This document shows, piece after piece, positions 20,809 to 28,713 of a DNA stretch of 64,000 nt. A model generated the notes under the pieces. That model had not been told where the DNA came from. It saw only the letters and a list, made by a program, of their open reading frames with translations, and ran no database searches. Position numbers and translations under genes: made by a program. Every line of letters begins with the position of its first letter. The stretch's first letter is position 1. The DNA comes from Roseibacterium elongatum DSM 19469 (lineage in GTDB: Bacteria > Pseudomonadota > Alphaproteobacteria > Rhodobacterales > Rhodobacteraceae), in assembly GCF_000590925.1 (NCBI RefSeq), contig NZ_CP004372.1, positions 10,001 through 74,000 of the forward strand. Direction: 5' to 3'.

Positions 20809-22146
20809 CTACATGTAGCGGGACATCAAGGCCGGCAGGTCGACGCGCGCGCCGATGCGCGTGCCCAACAGGTAGAGGCCGCCCATCTTGCGTTGCAGAA
20901 ACAGCGTTTCCGCCGGCGGGATGTGCCACAACTCGCGCTCGGTCCCGATCTCCATGCCGCGGCGGCGCATCTTGTCGGCCAGGTCGTTGCCCTCGAACTC
21001 GAACGGAGCCGACATCGAGTCGAACCCGATCTCGGCCATGTCGAGAATGGTGTCCCGATGGTGATCCGCGAGATCGGGCTTGATGAAGTTCAACCGCTCC
21101 AGCGCCGTCATCGTCGCGTTACGATCACGATGGACACCCGCGATCATCAGATCGCGGTGGCCCTCGGCCACCTCGGCCGAGATCTCGCGGCTGGCGCCGA
21201 AATCCAGCAGCACCACCTGCCCGGTCTCGGGGCGCCAACGGTAATTGGCGAAATTGGGATCGGTCTGCATCAGGCGGAACTCGAAAAGCTCCCGCAAGGT
21301 CAGCTCGATCAGGGCCGAGATGACGTGATCGCGCATCGGCTTGGGCGCATGGGCGAGGGTTTCGATCGGCTCGGCCGCCTCGAAGGACATCGCCAATGCA
21401 TCGGGCCCCGACAGGTCGGGGCGATGCGCGGGTACCGCGAAGCGATCATCATCGGTCAGCAGCGCCCGGAACCGCGCGAGGTAATACCCCTCGCGATCGT
21501 AATCGGCCTCCTCGTGCAACTGGCGCCGTGCCTCGGCCAGCAGCGGGCCCATATCCAACCCCTCCGGCATCAGGCCGGACCATCGGATCAGCGCCGCGAC
21601 ATTGTCCAGGTCGCTGTCGATGGCATCGCGCACGCCGGGGTATTGCAACTTGATCGCCAGCGATTGCCCATCGGCGGCGGTGGCGCGGTGGACCTGCCCG
21701 ATCGAGGCCGCGGCCAGGGGCGTGGTGTCGAACCCCCGAAACTTGCGCCGGAACTGGGCGCCATAGGCAGTTTCGAGAACGGTCTTGAGCTGCTTGGGCG
21801 GCATGAAATGCGCATCCTGGCGCAGCCGCGCGAGAATATCGGCCAATTCCGGCGGCAGCATGTCGCCGGTTTCCATCGACAAAAGCTGCCCCATCTTCAT
21901 GGCCGCGCCGCGCATATCGGCCAGTTTGTCCGCGACGCGTGTCAGGTTGCCGGGCGTCAGCAACAGCTTGTCCAGACGCGGGCGTTCGCCCCGCACAAGG
22001 GCGCGGGCCCCGCCGACGGCGACGCCGCCCGCCAACCCCGTTGCCAATCCCCCCATGCGTCCCATACGCGCCAGACGCGAGGACGGCACGGCGCGCGAGC
22101 GCGACACAGCTTTTTCCGAAGACATTGCAGATCCAATCGTAACCAC
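20809..22146 (-). CDS. ABC1/UbiB/ADCK-family atypical kinase
   Basis: This 445-residue protein belongs to the ABC1 (COQ8/UbiB) kinase-like family, whose members support ubiquinone synthesis or lipid homeostasis as ATPases. It has the family KxGQ motif (AAMKMGQLL, about residue 83), the alanine-rich AAASIGQVH loop, the lysine in LAIKLQYPG and the metal-binding DFG in LLDFGASRE. The usual catalytic-loop motif HADPHPGN is replaced by QTDPNFAN. A GTG start at 22146 has a GGAG site; an ATG seven codons in is the alternative. It is convergent with cydX. Confidence 0.82.
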   Translation of the reverse strand: MVTIGSAMSSEKAVSRSRAVPSSRLARMGRMGGLATGLAGGVAVGGARALVRGERPRLDKLLLTPGNLTRVADKLADMRGAAMKMGQLLSMETGDMLPPELADILARLRQDAHFMPPKQLKTVLETAYGAQFRRKFRGFDTTPLAAASIGQVHRATAADGQSLAIKLQYPGVRDAIDSDLDNVAALIRWSGLMPEGLDMGPLLAEARRQLHEEADYDREGYYLARFRALLTDDDRFAVPAHRPDLSGPDALAMSFEAAEPIETLAHAPKPMRDHVISALIELTLRELFEFRLMQTDPNFANYRWRPETGQVVLLDFGASREISAEVAEGHRDLMIAGVHRDRNATMTALERLNFIKPDLADHHRDTILDMAEIGFDSMSAPFEFEGNDLADKMRRRGMEIGTERELWHIPPAETLFLQRKMGGLYLLGTRIGARVDLPALMSRYM

Positions 22147-22159
22147 TTGTCTCCGTTAT

Positions 22160-23296
22160 TTAAGTCGCCGCCGGCTTGATGCGAGGGTCGGTGGCTGCGG
22201 CGTGTCGCCCCCCGCCAGCCCGATCCTCGGCAGGTGCCGATGCGCGGCGGTCCGGGCTGGGCAGGCCCCCGTCGTCGTGCCGGGCATGGCGGCCCCGACC
22301 GGCATGTTTCGCGCGATAGAGCGCCATGTCCGTGTCCATCTGCAACTGATCCGGGCTAGGGCGCCGCGCATATTGCGCCGTAGAGGCCATGCCGATCGAG
22401 GCCGACACATGGCATGTCACCCCATCAAAGGGGATCGGTTCCTCGACCCTTGCGATCAGGCGGCTGGCCACCTCGTCGATCGCATCCGGGTCAGTGCAGT
22501 CGCGCAGGATGACCAGAAATTCGTCACCCCCGACCCGGGCTGCGATGTCGCCGCGCCGCAACTCGTCGCGCAGAATGCGGCCGACCTGCTGCAACACCCG
22601 GTCGCCGGCGGCGTGGCCGTGGGTGTCGTTCACCTGTTTGAACAGGTCCAGATCCAGGTGCAGCAAGGCGAAATCGGCCGAAGCGTCGGCCAGAGATCGC
22701 GCCAACTCGATATCCATCGCACGCCGGTTGGCCAGACCGGTCAGATCGTCGGTCAGGGCCTGCGCCTCGGCCGCGAGGCGGGCGGCGCGCAATCGTTCGG
22801 TCAGTTGCCGCGACAGCCGCGCAATCGAGGCGTTCGCCTCGTGCAGATAGAGCAATTCCAGCGTCTGGTCGCAGGGCGAGAAATCGGCCTGGCTGAGATC
22901 GAACTCGGCCACCCCTCGCATGAAGCTCAGCCCCAGGGACATGTCCAGAAGGGCGCCCGAGCGCTCGGGCAATCGGCTGAGCACCCCCCGCATCGGCAGG
23001 TGCGGCGCGGCATGCAGCGCCAGGGCGAGGCGTTGCCCCTCCTGCTGCAACAGATCGTCGAAACAGGTGACCGAGGCCGGGCGCCGGATCTCGAGAATGG
23101 TCAGCAGGGGCATTCCTTCGAGTGGGTGATCGCCGAGCATCTTGGCGATCGTCGGCCCAGCATGGGCGACACGCCCGTCTTCGGCCAGCCACAGATGCAT
23201 CGGCATCAGACGGTCCAGATCGCGCGGGGCAAGCGCGATGCGCGCGCCCTCGCCGGGCTGAGACGTGGTGCGTGGTCTGGTGAAGCCCAGGGTCAT
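22160..23296 (-). CDS. HNOBA-domain diguanylate cyclase paired with H-NOX
   Basis: This 378-residue protein has an N-terminal domain (about 28-150) resembling the HNOBA domain that links H-NOX to cyclases in soluble guanylate cyclase: MHLWLAEDGRVAHAG and the ILEIRRPASVTCFDDLL segment. A predicted helix (about 150-185) leads to a GGDEF domain. The active site GGDEF (256-260) is intact and an RxxD inhibitory site (R247-D250) lies five residues before it, so it should make c-di-GMP and be product-inhibited. Its ATG overlaps the H-NOX stop as ATGA, so the two proteins are likely made and act together. Confidence 0.85.
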   Translation of the reverse strand: MTLGFTRPRTTSQPGEGARIALAPRDLDRLMPMHLWLAEDGRVAHAGPTIAKMLGDHPLEGMPLLTILEIRRPASVTCFDDLLQQEGQRLALALHAAPHLPMRGVLSRLPERSGALLDMSLGLSFMRGVAEFDLSQADFSPCDQTLELLYLHEANASIARLSRQLTERLRAARLAAEAQALTDDLTGLANRRAMDIELARSLADASADFALLHLDLDLFKQVNDTHGHAAGDRVLQQVGRILRDELRRGDIAARVGGDEFLVILRDCTDPDAIDEVASRLIARVEEPIPFDGVTCHVSASIGMASTAQYARRPSPDQLQMDTDMALYRAKHAGRGRHARHDDGGLPSPDRRASAPAEDRAGGGRHAAATDPRIKPAAT

Positions 23297-23880
23297 GGCG
23301 TCGTGCCCCCCAGCACGAATTGGCGGCCCTCGGCATATTGCGCATCCAGGAGTTGGACATGCAGGCATTCCTGCCCGGAATCGAAGCCGTCGAGACTGAG
23401 CAGGACGAGCGCGCCGTAATCATCGGCCATGGCCCGCAAGCCGCCCAGAAGGATGGGCGCGATCCCCGGCAGATCCCAACTGGCCCGGAGGTGATACGAG
23501 GACGGATCGAGGCAGGTGACGAAGATTTCCGGCAGTTCGAGATCGGGAATGGCGAGGCGACCACGTTCACGCAATTCCTCGAGCGACAGAAGAAAGTCCA
23601 GAAAGGTGGCGCCGCCAAATCGCAGCAGGCGCCGCAACGGCTCGAGCGCCGGGTCGGTCACCAGATAGGTCCCCAGATCCTCAAGCAGCGCGTTGGGGTG
23701 TTTGTGCAGGACAAGGCACGCCGCCTCGAAACAGGCCGTGGTCTGGCGATGGTCGTAGGTGAGCATCGCTTCGAACCCCTCGGGCGGGATGCCCGCCATG
23801 TCGCGGATTTCGTGCCACAGCCGACTGCCGTAATGGGCCGTGAGAAACCCCTGGAGGGCGCGATTGATCATGCCATGCAT
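23293..23880 (-). CDS. H-NOX (heme NO-binding) family protein lacking the proximal histidine
   Basis: This 195-residue protein starts MHGMINRALQGFL, the typical H-NOX N-terminus. H-NOX domains bind heme through a proximal histidine and sense NO or O2. Aligning by the fixed spacing to the two downstream prolines (Pro112 and Pro117), the histidine position falls on Arg104 in SLEELRERGRLAIPDLELP. The YxSxR heme-propionate motif also appears lost around residues 130-140 (LRASWDLPG). It may therefore not bind heme in the usual way. It is translationally coupled to the HNOBA-GGDEF gene. Start: ATG 23880; MIN three codons later is an alternative. Confidence 0.82.
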   Translation of the reverse strand: MHGMINRALQGFLTAHYGSRLWHEIRDMAGIPPEGFEAMLTYDHRQTTACFEAACLVLHKHPNALLEDLGTYLVTDPALEPLRRLLRFGGATFLDFLLSLEELRERGRLAIPDLELPEIFVTCLDPSSYHLRASWDLPGIAPILLGGLRAMADDYGALVLLSLDGFDSGQECLHVQLLDAQYAEGRQFVLGGTTP

Positions 23881-23977
23881 GTGGAGGCCTTGTGCTGCGT
23901 GATGTGCGGGGCGCACACGGCACGGCCCCGACCTCCACGACGCTAGACCAAATCCGTAAAGAAACAGTTGACGCCGT

Positions 23978-25537
23978 TCAGAAATCCGTAGGCGCGCCGC
24001 CCTGGGCCTTGCGCCGCGCGACGAAATCGGCCAGCTCGTCGCGGATCTCGGCGTCCATTGGCGGGGCCTCGAACTCCGCAAGGATGCGTTTGTAGATGCG
24101 ATGCGCGCGTTCGACGGTCCAGACGCCGCCATCGCCGGCCCAGGCCTCGAAATTCCGCCAATCCGACGCGAAAGGCTGGTAAAAGGCATTCTGGTAGCGG
24201 GCCTGCGTGTGCGCACAGCCAAAAAAATGCCCGCCGGGGCCCACCTCGGCGATGGCGTCGATAGCCAGATCGTCCTCGGCCGTGGCTGTCAGCGCCGGTT
24301 CGAAATAGCGCTGGATCTGCTGCAACAGCTCGCAATCCATGACGAATTTCTCGGGGCTGGCGATCAGACCGCCCTCAAGCCACCCCGCCGCATGATAGAC
24401 CATGTTGGCCCCCGATTGCACCGCGGCCCAAAGCGAGTTTCCGGTTTCCCACATCGCCTGACCATCCGGCACATTGGCCGCACAGACGCCCGAGGCGCGC
24501 ATGGGCAACCCGTAATGGCGCGCCATCTGGCCCGTCATCTGGGTCGCCCGCATGTATTCCGGCGTGCCGAAGGCGGGCGCGCCCGACTTCATGTCGACAT
24601 TCGAGGTGAACGTGCCGATGGCCACCGGGCAGCCCGGCGCGATCCATTGCAGAAGCGCGATGGCGGCCAGCCCCTCGGCCAGGCTGAGCGCGACGGCCCC
24701 GGCCAACGTCACCGGCGCCATGGCCCCCGCCAGAGTGAAGGGCGTCACCACCACGGGTTGCCCGCGCCGCGCCAGCCGCATGGCCCCGTCCAGCATCGGC
24801 CAATCATGTTTCAGCGGACTGACCGAATTGATGTTCGTATACATGCGCGGGGCAGCGTCGAACTCGTCATGGGTCAGGCCGCCCGCGATGCGCACCATTT
24901 CCATCACGTCCTCGACCCGTTCGGGCCCCAGCGAATAGGCATGGGCGACCTTGTCGGTCAGGGTCAGCTTTTCAAACAGGCAATCGAGATGCCGCACGCT
25001 GGCATGCACGTCAATGGGTTCCACCGGATAGCCGCCGGCGATGTGGATGCAGTTGAAATACTGCGTCAGCTTCATGAATTCGCGGAAGGTCGCGAAATCA
25101 CCGGGGCGTTTGCCGCGTTCGAGATCCCATGCATTCGGCGGGGACGAGACGTTGACAAAGGTCATGTGGCGGCCGCCGATCGTGACCGACCGATCCGGGT
25201 TGCGCGGCGTGATGGTGAACTGCGCCGGCGCCTTGCCGACCATGTCCATCACGAAATCGGGGTCAAAGCGGGCGGTCTGCCCCTCGATCCGGCAGCCGGC
25301 GGCGCGCAGGTGCCCCAAGGCCTCGTCATTCAGGAACTCGATCCCGATCTCCGACAGGATGCGCATCGCACCGGAATGCAAGGCCGCGATGCCGGCCTCG
25401 TCCAACGGTTCGGTCGGGCGATCGGTATTGAGCGGGATGCGCCACGGCGTCTGCGCGATCGCGGGGCCGGCCGCCCGGCTGGTTCCTGTACGGCGGCCTC
25501 CGTGGCGGCGGCGGCGGGCAGGCGTGGCGTCGTTCAT
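23978..25537 (-). CDS. MttB-family (trimethylamine methyltransferase-like) protein, non-pyrrolysine
   Basis: This 519-residue protein belongs to the MttB superfamily, cobalamin-dependent methyltransferases acting on quaternary or tertiary amines. The archaeal enzyme contains pyrrolysine encoded by UAG; here the frame is uninterrupted, so it is a non-pyrrolysine member. Relatives of this kind demethylate glycine betaine, carnitine or similar compounds, but the substrate cannot be read from sequence. The N-terminal 30 residues are arginine-rich. The ATG at 25537 has GGAGAGG upstream. No corrinoid protein gene is nearby, so its partner must lie elsewhere. Confidence 0.85.
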   Translation of the reverse strand: MNDATPARRRRHGGRRTGTSRAAGPAIAQTPWRIPLNTDRPTEPLDEAGIAALHSGAMRILSEIGIEFLNDEALGHLRAAGCRIEGQTARFDPDFVMDMVGKAPAQFTITPRNPDRSVTIGGRHMTFVNVSSPPNAWDLERGKRPGDFATFREFMKLTQYFNCIHIAGGYPVEPIDVHASVRHLDCLFEKLTLTDKVAHAYSLGPERVEDVMEMVRIAGGLTHDEFDAAPRMYTNINSVSPLKHDWPMLDGAMRLARRGQPVVVTPFTLAGAMAPVTLAGAVALSLAEGLAAIALLQWIAPGCPVAIGTFTSNVDMKSGAPAFGTPEYMRATQMTGQMARHYGLPMRASGVCAANVPDGQAMWETGNSLWAAVQSGANMVYHAAGWLEGGLIASPEKFVMDCELLQQIQRYFEPALTATAEDDLAIDAIAEVGPGGHFFGCAHTQARYQNAFYQPFASDWRNFEAWAGDGGVWTVERAHRIYKRILAEFEAPPMDAEIRDELADFVARRKAQGGAPTDF

Positions 25538-25610
25538 GGCAACCTCTCCAGATCGGGACGCAGCGCCTCCCGTCGTGCAAGGGTCACCTGTCGGGCAGTC
25601 GCATGTGTTT

Positions 25611-26363
25611 TCAGATAGCGACGGATCGGGTCGCTTTTGGTCCGGATCCTGCGGTTTCCGCGCCGTGATCGCCCATCTCGCGCAGCAAGACGGGCAGATG
25701 CGCGATATCGGGCAAGACGGCATCGGCATGGGGAGCGAGTTCGTCGGCAGGCGCAAGCCCGGTCAGAACGCCGACGACCTGCATGCCGGCGGCGCGTCCG
25801 GCCCTGAGGTCATGCAAACTGTCGCCCACCATGAGGACCTCGGCCGCATCGAGGCCCATCGTATCGGCGAATCCATGGCACATGCCGGGGTCGGGTTTGG
25901 CCCCGTAGCCGGTATCGAAGCCGGCCACGAAATCGAAATCGGCCGAGACGCCGGCGGCGGTCAGATGTGCGCGCGCCTCGACCTCGGCGGCATTGGTGGC
26001 GACCCCCAGTTTCATCCCCTCGGCGCGCAACGCGCGCAAGAGCGGGGCCAGCGGGGCCACCGGAACCATGGGCGCCTCGGCAGCGGCGGCGTTCATGCGA
26101 TCGACCAGCACCGCAATGCCGGGCGCGGACAACAGCGGATCGAGCCGCATGGCCAGTTCCTCGAGCGTGCCCGCAATGACGGGGCTGCCCGGCAGGAAAC
26201 GGCGCCGCGTCATGTCATAGCCCGCACGATCGGCGAGGGCCTCGGCCAGGCCGGGGTCACCGGCCGCCAGATCGAGGAACAGGCCGGCGGCCCACTCGCT
26301 CCAGCTGGCCTCGAAATCGAAAAGCGTACCGTCCTTGTCGAACAGGATCCCGCGAATGGGCAT
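25611..26363 (-). CDS. HAD-superfamily hydrolase, phosphoglycolate-phosphatase-like
   Basis: This 250-residue HAD hydrolase has the catalytic DKDGTLFDF motif (nucleophile Asp9, acid/base Asp11), a motif II threonine in LGVATNA, a motif III lysine in AKPDPGMC and the motif IV acidic pair in LMVGDSLHDL. A helical cap lies between motifs I and II, as in Gph-type phosphatases. The start at 26363 is the only one that puts motif I at the N-terminus. It is divergent from the MarR gene. Phosphoglycolate is a guess at substrate; the family is broad. Confidence 0.85.
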   Translation of the reverse strand: MPIRGILFDKDGTLFDFEASWSEWAAGLFLDLAAGDPGLAEALADRAGYDMTRRRFLPGSPVIAGTLEELAMRLDPLLSAPGIAVLVDRMNAAAAEAPMVPVAPLAPLLRALRAEGMKLGVATNAAEVEARAHLTAAGVSADFDFVAGFDTGYGAKPDPGMCHGFADTMGLDAAEVLMVGDSLHDLRAGRAAGMQVVGVLTGLAPADELAPHADAVLPDIAHLPVLLREMGDHGAETAGSGPKATRSVAI

Positions 26364-26951: not shown

Positions 26952-27230
26952 TCAGGTCCAGCTTGGCACCTGCCCACCGGGCAGAGCCGCCCGGATCGTA
27001 ACGATATCGGTGGGCGGCCATCCCTGCGCATCGGCGCACCCGATCACCCAGGCATCGTCCATAAGGACAAAGTCGAGGACCGAGGCCAGGAACTCGGGCT
27101 CGGCGGCGCGGCGGCGCAGATCTGCCTCGGCCACACCGGTGGCGCCCATGAACACGGGCAGCAGATCGTCCTTTCCCGCCAACCACCCCAGAACCTGCAA
27201 CGCGCGGGTTTCGGCGATTTCCTGCTTCAT
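26952..27230 (-). CDS. DUF3572 family protein
   Basis: This is a 92-residue protein of the DUF3572 family, found in alphaproteobacteria and of unknown function. It has no signal peptide or membrane helix. The core reads ALQVLGWLAGKDDLLPVFMGATG and ends PGGQVPSWT. The start MKQEIAETRA at 27230 has GGAAGG upstream. It is divergent from the PleD-like gene, a pairing that I recall as recurrent in this group; that link is from memory, not from a search. Confidence 0.8.
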   Translation of the reverse strand: MKQEIAETRALQVLGWLAGKDDLLPVFMGATGVAEADLRRRAAEPEFLASVLDFVLMDDAWVIGCADAQGWPPTDIVTIRAALPGGQVPSWT

Positions 27231-27321
27231 TCCCAATTCTGACCTTCCGGTTAAAGTATTTATTAACCATTGTCCGCGACACCTTGACCATATCTGGATC
27301 ACACCAGTGGGCGAGGAACGC

Positions 27322-28713
27322 ATGACGGGGCGCATCTTGATCGTTGACGATGTAGCGACGAATCGCATCGTCATGAAGGTCAAACTGGCCGCTGCGTGCT
27401 ATGACGTCGACCAAGCCGACACGGCGGCCAATGCGCTGTCGGCGGCGCGCCGCAACGCACCGGATCTGATCCTGCTTGACCTGAGCCTGCCGGACATGTC
27501 CGGGCTCGAGGCATGCAGACGCCTGAAGGCGGACCCGGCCACCGCCGGCATCCCGGTCATCCTGGTCACGGCCGTGGCCGATCATGCCTCGAAAATGGCC
27601 GGGTTGGAGGCCGGGGCCGACGATTTCCTGACCAAGCCGGTCGACGAGGTGACCCTGCTGGCGCGGGTCCGGTCGCTGCTACGTGCCCGAGACGCGGTGC
27701 AGGACCTGCAGGCGCGCGATGCCTGCAGCGCGCATCTGGGCTTTGCCGAGGCGATGGGCGGCTTCTCGGCGCAGGATCGTCCGGCCCGAATCGCGCTTGT
27801 GGCGCCGGGCGCGCGCGGTGCGGTGATCTGGAAAAACGCCCTGGACATGCGCCTGTGCGACGAGGTCGTCGTACTGCCGCGCGAAGCGGCCCTGTCCCAG
27901 GCCGGCAACGCCGCACAAGAGGTGCCGGATGTCTTCGTCATCGCCGCCGACCTCGGGGCCCGCAACGACGGCATGCGCCTTTTGTCCGACCTGCGTTCGC
28001 GTCAGCATACGCGCCACGCGGCCGCGATCATGATCCTGCCCGAGGGCGACAGCGAGCGCGCCGCAAGCGCCCTCGATCTGGGGGCGTCGGATATCCTGTT
28101 CGACCCGTTCGACCCGCAGGAACTGGCCATCCGCATCCGCGCCCAACTGGCGCGCAAACGGCAGGCGGACACCCTGCGGGCCTCCGTGAAAGCGGGGCTC
28201 GAGCTGGCCATGACGGATAGCCTCACCGGGCTGCACAATCGCCGCTACGCGCTCTACCGGCTGGAGCAGATGATGGCGCGCCCCGGTCGGGGCGTTGCGG
28301 TGATGATGCTGGATCTCGATTATTTCAAGGCGATCAACGACCGCCATGGGCATCGGGTCGGCGATCAGGTCCTTGCGCTGGTCGCGCGACGCCTGCGCGC
28401 CCAGTTGCGCAACAGGGATCTGCTGGCGCGTATCGGGGGCGAGGAATTTCTGGTCGCCCTGCCCTTTTGCGACCTGAAGGCCGCCATGGATTGCGCCGAA
28501 CGCCTGCGCCACACCATCGGGCACACCACCTTCGAGATCGATGCCGCACCTGCGCCGCTCAGGGTCACCCTGAGCGTGGGGCTGGCGCTGGTGTCGGGCG
28601 AGCCCAGCTGCGAAACCCCGCAAAGTGCCATCGATCGGGCAGACCGGGCGCTCTACGGCGCAAAGACCCATGGCCGTGATCAGGTCACGCTGGCCAATCG
28701 CCCCGCCGCGTGA
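27322..28713 (+). CDS. pleD: PleD-like response regulator: REC-REC-GGDEF diguanylate cyclase
   Basis: This 463-residue protein has the architecture of Caulobacter PleD. The first receiver domain has acidic residues at 9-10 and phospho-acceptor Asp53 in LLDLSLPDMSG. The second receiver (about 150-290) lacks a clear phospho-acceptor, as in PleD, where it serves as a dimerisation adaptor. The GGDEF domain has an intact RIGGEEFLV site and an RNRD inhibitory site five residues before it. Phosphorylation should activate c-di-GMP synthesis. The ATG at 27322 has GAGGAA upstream. The cognate histidine kinase is not in this window. Confidence 0.88.
   Translation: MTGRILIVDDVATNRIVMKVKLAAACYDVDQADTAANALSAARRNAPDLILLDLSLPDMSGLEACRRLKADPATAGIPVILVTAVADHASKMAGLEAGADDFLTKPVDEVTLLARVRSLLRARDAVQDLQARDACSAHLGFAEAMGGFSAQDRPARIALVAPGARGAVIWKNALDMRLCDEVVVLPREAALSQAGNAAQEVPDVFVIAADLGARNDGMRLLSDLRSRQHTRHAAAIMILPEGDSERAASALDLGASDILFDPFDPQELAIRIRAQLARKRQADTLRASVKAGLELAMTDSLTGLHNRRYALYRLEQMMARPGRGVAVMMLDLDYFKAINDRHGHRVGDQVLALVARRLRAQLRNRDLLARIGGEEFLVALPFCDLKAAMDCAERLRHTIGHTTFEIDAAPAPLRVTLSVGLALVSGEPSCETPQSAIDRADRALYGAKTHGRDQVTLANRPAA

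Follow-up and report, generated by a model that had tools for sequence, protein, structure and literature searches.

In Paracoccus denitrificans, the H-NOX gene Pden_3719 overlaps the diguanylate cyclase gene dgcA (Pden_3720), and its product was described in 2017 as one that 'lacks the otherwise conserved histidine', the same loss being cited for Rhodobacter sphaeroides (PMC5588039). The hnoX mutant is partly biofilm-deficient and without BapA, the dgcAB mutant overproduces both biofilm and BapA, and the authors of that report suggest that H-NOX inhibits DgcA (PMC5588039). For the corresponding pair of Dinoroseobacter shibae, hnox-dgc1 (Dshi_2815/2814), nitric oxide (NO)-bound H-NOX is stated to inhibit Dgc1 (PMC7232146, PMC8846402) and the protein is listed as a heme sensor (PMC8846402); deletion of hnox has metabolic effects, reported in a study in which cyclic di-GMP (c-di-GMP) could not be measured (PMC12582929). 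In canonical H-NOX proteins, the proximal His is displaced by NO, with movement of helix F, and among 598 relatives of Vibrio H-NOX this His was found to be 'absolutely conserved' (PMC7108781). Here we analyse an H-NOX/diguanylate cyclase gene pair of Roseibacterium elongatum DSM 19469, a member of the Rhodobacteraceae, within a window of 64,000 nucleotides (contig NZ_CP004372.1, positions 10,001 to 74,000 of the forward strand; coordinates below are those of the window). The pair is the Rhodobacteraceae hnoX-dgcA locus, orthologous to P. denitrificans hnoX-dgcA and D. shibae hnox-dgc1, and its H-NOX-fold protein lacks both the proximal His and the heme-propionate motif. A preliminary description, made from the sequence alone, had presented the pair as an undescribed signalling system; this is superseded by the 2017 account of the pair and its His loss (PMC5588039) and by the NO control reported for D. 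shibae. The features of the locus are as follows.

23293..23880, minus strand: H-NOX-fold (HNOB) gene, 195 aa, with its ATG start at 23880 and its TGA stop at 23295-23293
23569..23571, minus strand: CGT codon of Arg104, at the position of the proximal heme-ligating His, within helix 93-110 (ungapped alignment to Nostoc His105; helix from the predicted model)
23530..23532, minus strand: Pro117, equivalent of the conserved heme-distorting proline (alignment)
23470..23484, minus strand: residues 133-137, A-S-W-D-L, replacing the propionate motif Y-x-S-x-R (alignment)
23293..23296, minus strand: ATGA stop/start overlap of the H-NOX and cyclase genes (reading frames)
22160..23296, minus strand: diguanylate cyclase gene, 378 aa, orthologue of DgcA/Dgc1 (reading frame and Pfam)
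22937..23227, minus strand: PAS-like/HNOBA N-terminal domain of the cyclase, residues ~24-120 (Pfam, model and structure matches)
22757..22867, minus strand: signalling helix of the cyclase, residues 144-180 (predicted structure)
22292..22759, minus strand: GGDEF domain, residues 180-335 (Pfam)
22547-22558, minus strand: RxxD inhibitory site (sequence)
22517-22531, minus strand: GGDEF motif (sequence)

By profile and by fold, the upstream protein belongs to the HNOB fold family: it scores 69.5 bits against Pfam PF07700 (HNOB; cut-off 25.5), and its AlphaFold2 model, predicted with confidence (predicted local distance difference test, pLDDT, 90; predicted template modelling score, pTM, 0.85), adopts the H-NOX fold and finds its best solved matches in Nostoc H-NOX and the beta subunit of soluble guanylate cyclase (sGC). 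NCBIfam at E 0.01 returned no family for this protein, and Rfam gave no match over 22000-24300. The cyclase matches Pfam GGDEF at 145.8 bits and HNOBA weakly and in part (28.1 bits, cut-off 23.4; 74 of 216 profile positions, residues 23-96), and its model (pLDDT 89, pTM 0.72) places a PAS-like domain (~24-120) before a 37-residue helix (144-180) and the GGDEF domain. Foldseek matched this model to PAS-GGDEF proteins, with human sGC beta (6jt2_B) at rank 49 (E 6.9e-13, 366 columns), a match whose root mean square deviation of 15.5 makes it a domain-by-domain likeness at best. The domain order and the 6jt2_B match support the sGC-like layout with a cyclase output that had been proposed for the pair. 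Among solved chains up to E 1, the N-terminal part of the cyclase matched only 2p04 (E 0.23) and 2p08 (E 0.77), both weakly; these carry the label 'signal transduction histidine kinase', and we take them to be an H-NOX-associated PAS domain. With its GGDEF motif and RxxD inhibitory site intact, the cyclase bears the sequence marks of an active diguanylate cyclase, and c-di-GMP is its expected product. The system shares with Legionella Hnox1-Lpg1057 and Shewanella woodyi H-NOX/DGC the pairing of an H-NOX protein with a c-di-GMP enzyme, and differs from sGC beta in comprising two proteins rather than one chain, in an output expected to make c-di-GMP and in having no heme His.

The residues that define a canonical heme site were compared in a HMMER alignment to Nostoc H-NOX chains, in which Arg104 falls without a gap onto His105, P112 and P117 onto P113 and P118 and, in the same ungapped stretch, A133, W135 and L137 onto Tyr134, Ser136 and Arg138. 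For this protein family it is well established that Nostoc His105 is the heme ligand and Tyr134/Ser136/Arg138 the YxSxR propionate motif. Judged by the marks of a canonical heme-binding H-NOX, the window protein therefore lacks the proximal His and YxSxR and keeps the heme-distorting proline. All 44 canonical controls have His at the ligand column, 42 a full YxSxR (the other two YxSxN) and 43 the conserved proline; these controls, namely the 30 top family scorers (L002-L031) and 14 from a class search, one of the latter from the window's own family, were picked by high HNOB score and show how a canonical protein looks, not how frequent it is. The preliminary description had placed Arg104 at the ligand position from its spacing to Pro112 and Pro117 and had reported YxSxR as lost; the ungapped alignment confirms both, and set against the controls the observation is far from chance. 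No His occurs among residues 101-107 of the window protein. A shifted alternative His near the site was considered and rejected, as in three sets of relatives a His within 101-107 stands at position 104 in 8/8, 16/16 and 25/26 rows.

Both losses extend well beyond this locus. HNOB proteins of either kind were found in 296 of the 394 genomes of the window's family and in 18 of 385 across the class (five of these 18 from the family itself), and the window H-NOX protein used as query matched in 106 of 149 family genomes, at least one of them (G004) owing its match to a canonical gene and a few owing it to fragments. In a genus-level set of 108 divergent members (about one per genus, window included, without L124 and L131, too short once trimmed, and L133, the same gene as canonical L003), the ligand site holds Pro in 79, His in 8, Arg and Asn in 4 each, Ala in 3, Gly, Gln and Thr in 2 each and Asp, Lys, Glu and Ser in 1 each, and YxSxR is complete in none, including the eight members that keep His (L040, L055, L066, L093, L107, L110, L116 and L135). 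Named-genome loci gave a similar picture: among the best 80 listed, which are those nearest a D. shibae-led query and exclude D. shibae itself, Pro occupies the site in 47, His in 16, Ser in 7 and other residues in 10, with YxSxR in 0/80. Among 358 database proteins, a redundant set of nearest relatives of three queries (130 of which entered structure alignment A3), the counts were Pro 193, Gly 53, Ala 38, His 25, Arg 17, Ser 15 and others 17, again with YxSxR in 0/358. Sought anywhere in the region regardless of gaps, the motif was found in 0/109, 0/80 and 0/358 rows and in 13/13 canonical rows, of which the alignment-based reading had scored 12/13 as complete owing to a gap. Once 13 near-duplicates (>95% identity) and two short rows were removed, 175 members remained, with His in 22 and the ligand gone in 153; because nearness to the His-bearing D. 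shibae protein was part of how this set was chosen, any bias would inflate the count of His. The first tree separates the 108 divergent rows from 13 canonical rows at a Shimodaira–Hasegawa-like approximate likelihood ratio test (SH-aLRT) support of 99, defining a separate group, and its branches are otherwise mostly weak (74 of 118 under 80).

These counts divide the expectation that Arg104 and the lost YxSxR would together mark a clade: loss of YxSxR is family-wide, but Arg104 is not conserved, Pro being commonest and nine residues other than Pro, His and Arg also occurring. Even within the window's genus the site reads Arg, Arg, Pro, Pro and Pro. On the sequences compared, His is no longer required at this position, and Arg is one among its many substitutes. 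Open-access literature, searched mostly at title and abstract level, yielded no family-wide survey; the present one adds that the pair is widespread in the family, mostly with His loss, and that YxSxR is kept in no member examined. Named relatives are annotated as heme NO-binding although the ligand is gone in 153 of 175. Two or three HNOB matches are listed for around 34 of the 296 family genomes that have any, as a rule a canonical protein with His alongside a divergent one; the window's genome has a single HNOB match.

Pairing with the cyclase is constant. A frame resembling the window cyclase lies directly downstream in 110/110 divergent rows, although in row L133, which is actually a canonical gene, this partner has no GGDEF; of the 112 rows that have a partner (two canonical rows among them), 110 show GGDEF and 107 the RxxD pattern. 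The intact GGDEF and inhibitory site noted earlier for the window cyclase recur at the usual spacing in all 71 aligned partners, the window's included; 70 partner frames came from the 80 named loci (the other ten had no pair by the search rule), and cyclase alignment A4 used 55 of the 70. The ATGA overlap, confirmed in the window at 23296-23293, is also recurrent: in 62 of 110 divergent rows the H-NOX reading frame likewise finishes on these four bases, and in 51 of 70 other loci the best partner start overlaps the H-NOX stop with an identical one-base shift. The window locus thus has the makeup of an hnoX-dgcA pair, a divergent H-NOX gene from a group apart from the canonical proteins, directly upstream of and overlapping a PAS/HNOBA-GGDEF gene.

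The pair can be compared with the two described ones. In P. denitrificans, as here, an overlapping H-NOX/GGDEF pair lacks the axial His, and the genome has just one further GGDEF protein, with a receiver domain; the P. denitrificans genome encodes two GGDEF and two EAL proteins (PMC5588039), and the window's genome (one contig) gave two GGDEF matches and one EAL match. The differences are Pro (L142) versus Arg at the ligand site, and a denitrifier host versus a genome in which NirK and NirS were sought without a match. Cereibacter sphaeroides (L078, 98% identical to a protein of that name) also has Pro. The D. shibae pair is likewise orthologous and without YxSxR (C-x-W-x-R stands in its place) but keeps the ligand His (L110; D. 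shibae DFL 12 is genome G035, whose plasmid contig is 100% identical to NC_009955.1), and it is for this protein that NO-bound inhibition of Dgc1 was reported (PMC7232146, PMC8846402).

A decaying H-NOX gene could also have lost its cofactor ligand, but the pattern of substitution makes gene loss in progress a negligible prospect. The ratio of non-synonymous to synonymous substitution rates (dN/dS) against four congeners is 0.17–0.25, a rough estimate given dS above 1; all five genomes of the genus, the window's own included, carry a match without an internal stop; and at 25 positions a residue is fixed in at least 95% of the 175 members but present in no more than 40% of 13 canonical rows. 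These newly fixed positions include E67, D68, R83, R84, R87, G90, R106, D153 and D154, with many lying within 67-73, 83-96, 106-114 and 148-158, and would correspond to a rebuilt core and a partner surface. Purifying selection, fixed positions and a confident fold together establish that the gene is not decaying. A coupling of His104 to an aromatic residue at 135 was also examined and set aside: the raw counts (12/22 versus 28/153, with 8 of the 22 His rows gapped at 135) reduce to three phylogenetically independent pairs with a median p of 1.

In ordinary H-NOX proteins, displacement of the His from the iron by NO produces the signalling state, and a His-to-Gly mutant of Shewanella H-NOX mimics the inhibitory state; 2kil, among the structures matched to the H-NOX model, is presumably that mutant. 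Starting from what is directly observed at this locus (the fold, the residue losses, their family-wide distribution, the constant pairing and purifying selection), we consider it most likely, with middling confidence, that the H-NOX-fold protein works independently of canonical heme-NO sensing and, as a protein partner, keeps the cyclase in check. Encoded with the cyclase, it would probably bind the PAS/HNOBA domain directly. With neither ligand His nor propionate motif, the canonical NO switch is unusable, and the His-less protein, probably free of heme, may be locked in or near the released, inhibitory state. A signal might then enter at the level of expression or via the cyclase's PAS domain. 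A heme-independent inhibitory partner is the simplest reading because the switch residues are gone, yet the hnoX deletion in P. denitrificans has a phenotype. The predicted model leaves the signalling state undecided: it is slightly closer to NO-activated than to inactive human sGC beta and slightly closer to unliganded than to NO-bound Shewanella H-NOX, all comparisons being near ties. The preliminary description had proposed a sensor moved to another ligand or to a heme-free partner role while keeping control of c-di-GMP, and that proposal gains from the lost ligand, the lost YxSxR, the intact cyclase and the constrained family-wide pattern; its claims of novelty and of an Arg104 clade fall away.

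The His/non-His distribution requires 11 changes by parsimony, but a single loss of His is not rejected by an approximately unbiased (AU) test (p 0.057; sampling 33 of 153 non-His rows, 32 random plus the window, with five long-branch or divergent non-His rows excluded). Other observations weigh against a heme-independent partner. The D. shibae protein, without YxSxR, is nonetheless listed as a heme NO sensor (PMC8846402), which suggests by analogy that loss of this motif need not abolish heme binding; Pro117 is kept in 175/175 non-redundant divergent members, the predicted model retains the H-NOX fold, and NO affects biofilm in P. denitrificans (PMC5588039). These favour a protein that continues to bind heme and to respond to NO, or to some other gas, its axial protein ligand being altered or missing; a five-coordinate NO complex needs no His. 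We regard this as possible but somewhat unlikely, given that site 104 holds 12 different residues across 108 members and no alternative ligand is common to them, that the D. shibae result behind the NO model comes from the His-bearing minority (8/108), and that the genome has no NirK/NirS match to supply NO from nitrite. A substitute ligand is likewise not apparent from column conservation: among the 175 members no Cys or Lys column reaches 80%, the only His column that does is H2 (155/175), and the Met and Tyr columns at that level are M1, M39, M151, Y17, Y42 and Y155.

Should the pocket have been emptied of heme, it might bind an unrelated ligand, such as a small hydrophobic metabolite, on which the pair would report, a scenario we consider doubtful. 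A heme-free redox switch through a cysteine/zinc site has precedent in the H-NOX proteins of Vibrio cholerae and Caulobacter (PMC7108781, PMC12329717) but is very improbable here, Cys reaching 30% of the 108 members only at columns 11 and 133, where the window has Gly and Ala. Assignment to the zinc/cysteine redox H-NOX proteins was accordingly rejected, the three-cysteine plus His/Gln motif being absent, with no matching conserved cysteines.

Extending the inhibitory-partner reading to the family, we propose tentatively that what was a heme gas sensor may, in most Rhodobacteraceae, have become a regulatory subunit that serves a diguanylate cyclase without heme, nature's equivalent of 'always NO-bound' mutants in which the histidine is missing. 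NO sensing would then survive only here and there, D. shibae being one example, and a single sensor family would alternate between gas-sensing and gas-blind forms with its output enzyme unchanged. The central question is what a His-less H-NOX sensor still senses; because the same partner occurs naturally with H-NOX proteins bearing His, Pro, Gly, Ala or Arg, the need for heme in cyclase control is directly testable, here with a cyclase that is one of only two GGDEF proteins found in the genome.

Both of these GGDEF matches sit in the window. The second, at 27010-28713 (plus strand), is PleD-like, with a receiver domain, a GGEEF motif and its GGDEF domain, ~5.5 kb away, at 28207-28683; of 156 related loci, 18 have a match to it within their flanks. 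The large gene that follows the pair immediately downstream, at 20809-22146 (minus strand), resembles an ABC1/AarF-family kinase gene, and just one of the 156 related loci has a match to it close to the pair. Directly upstream lies a trimethylamine-methyltransferase-like gene (23978-25756, minus strand), and matches to it in the flanks of 94 of 156 related loci indicate that this neighbourhood is old. At a Phaeobacter plasmid locus (L143), the order is cyclase, DUF3572, HAD, methyltransferase, H-NOX and GGDEF.
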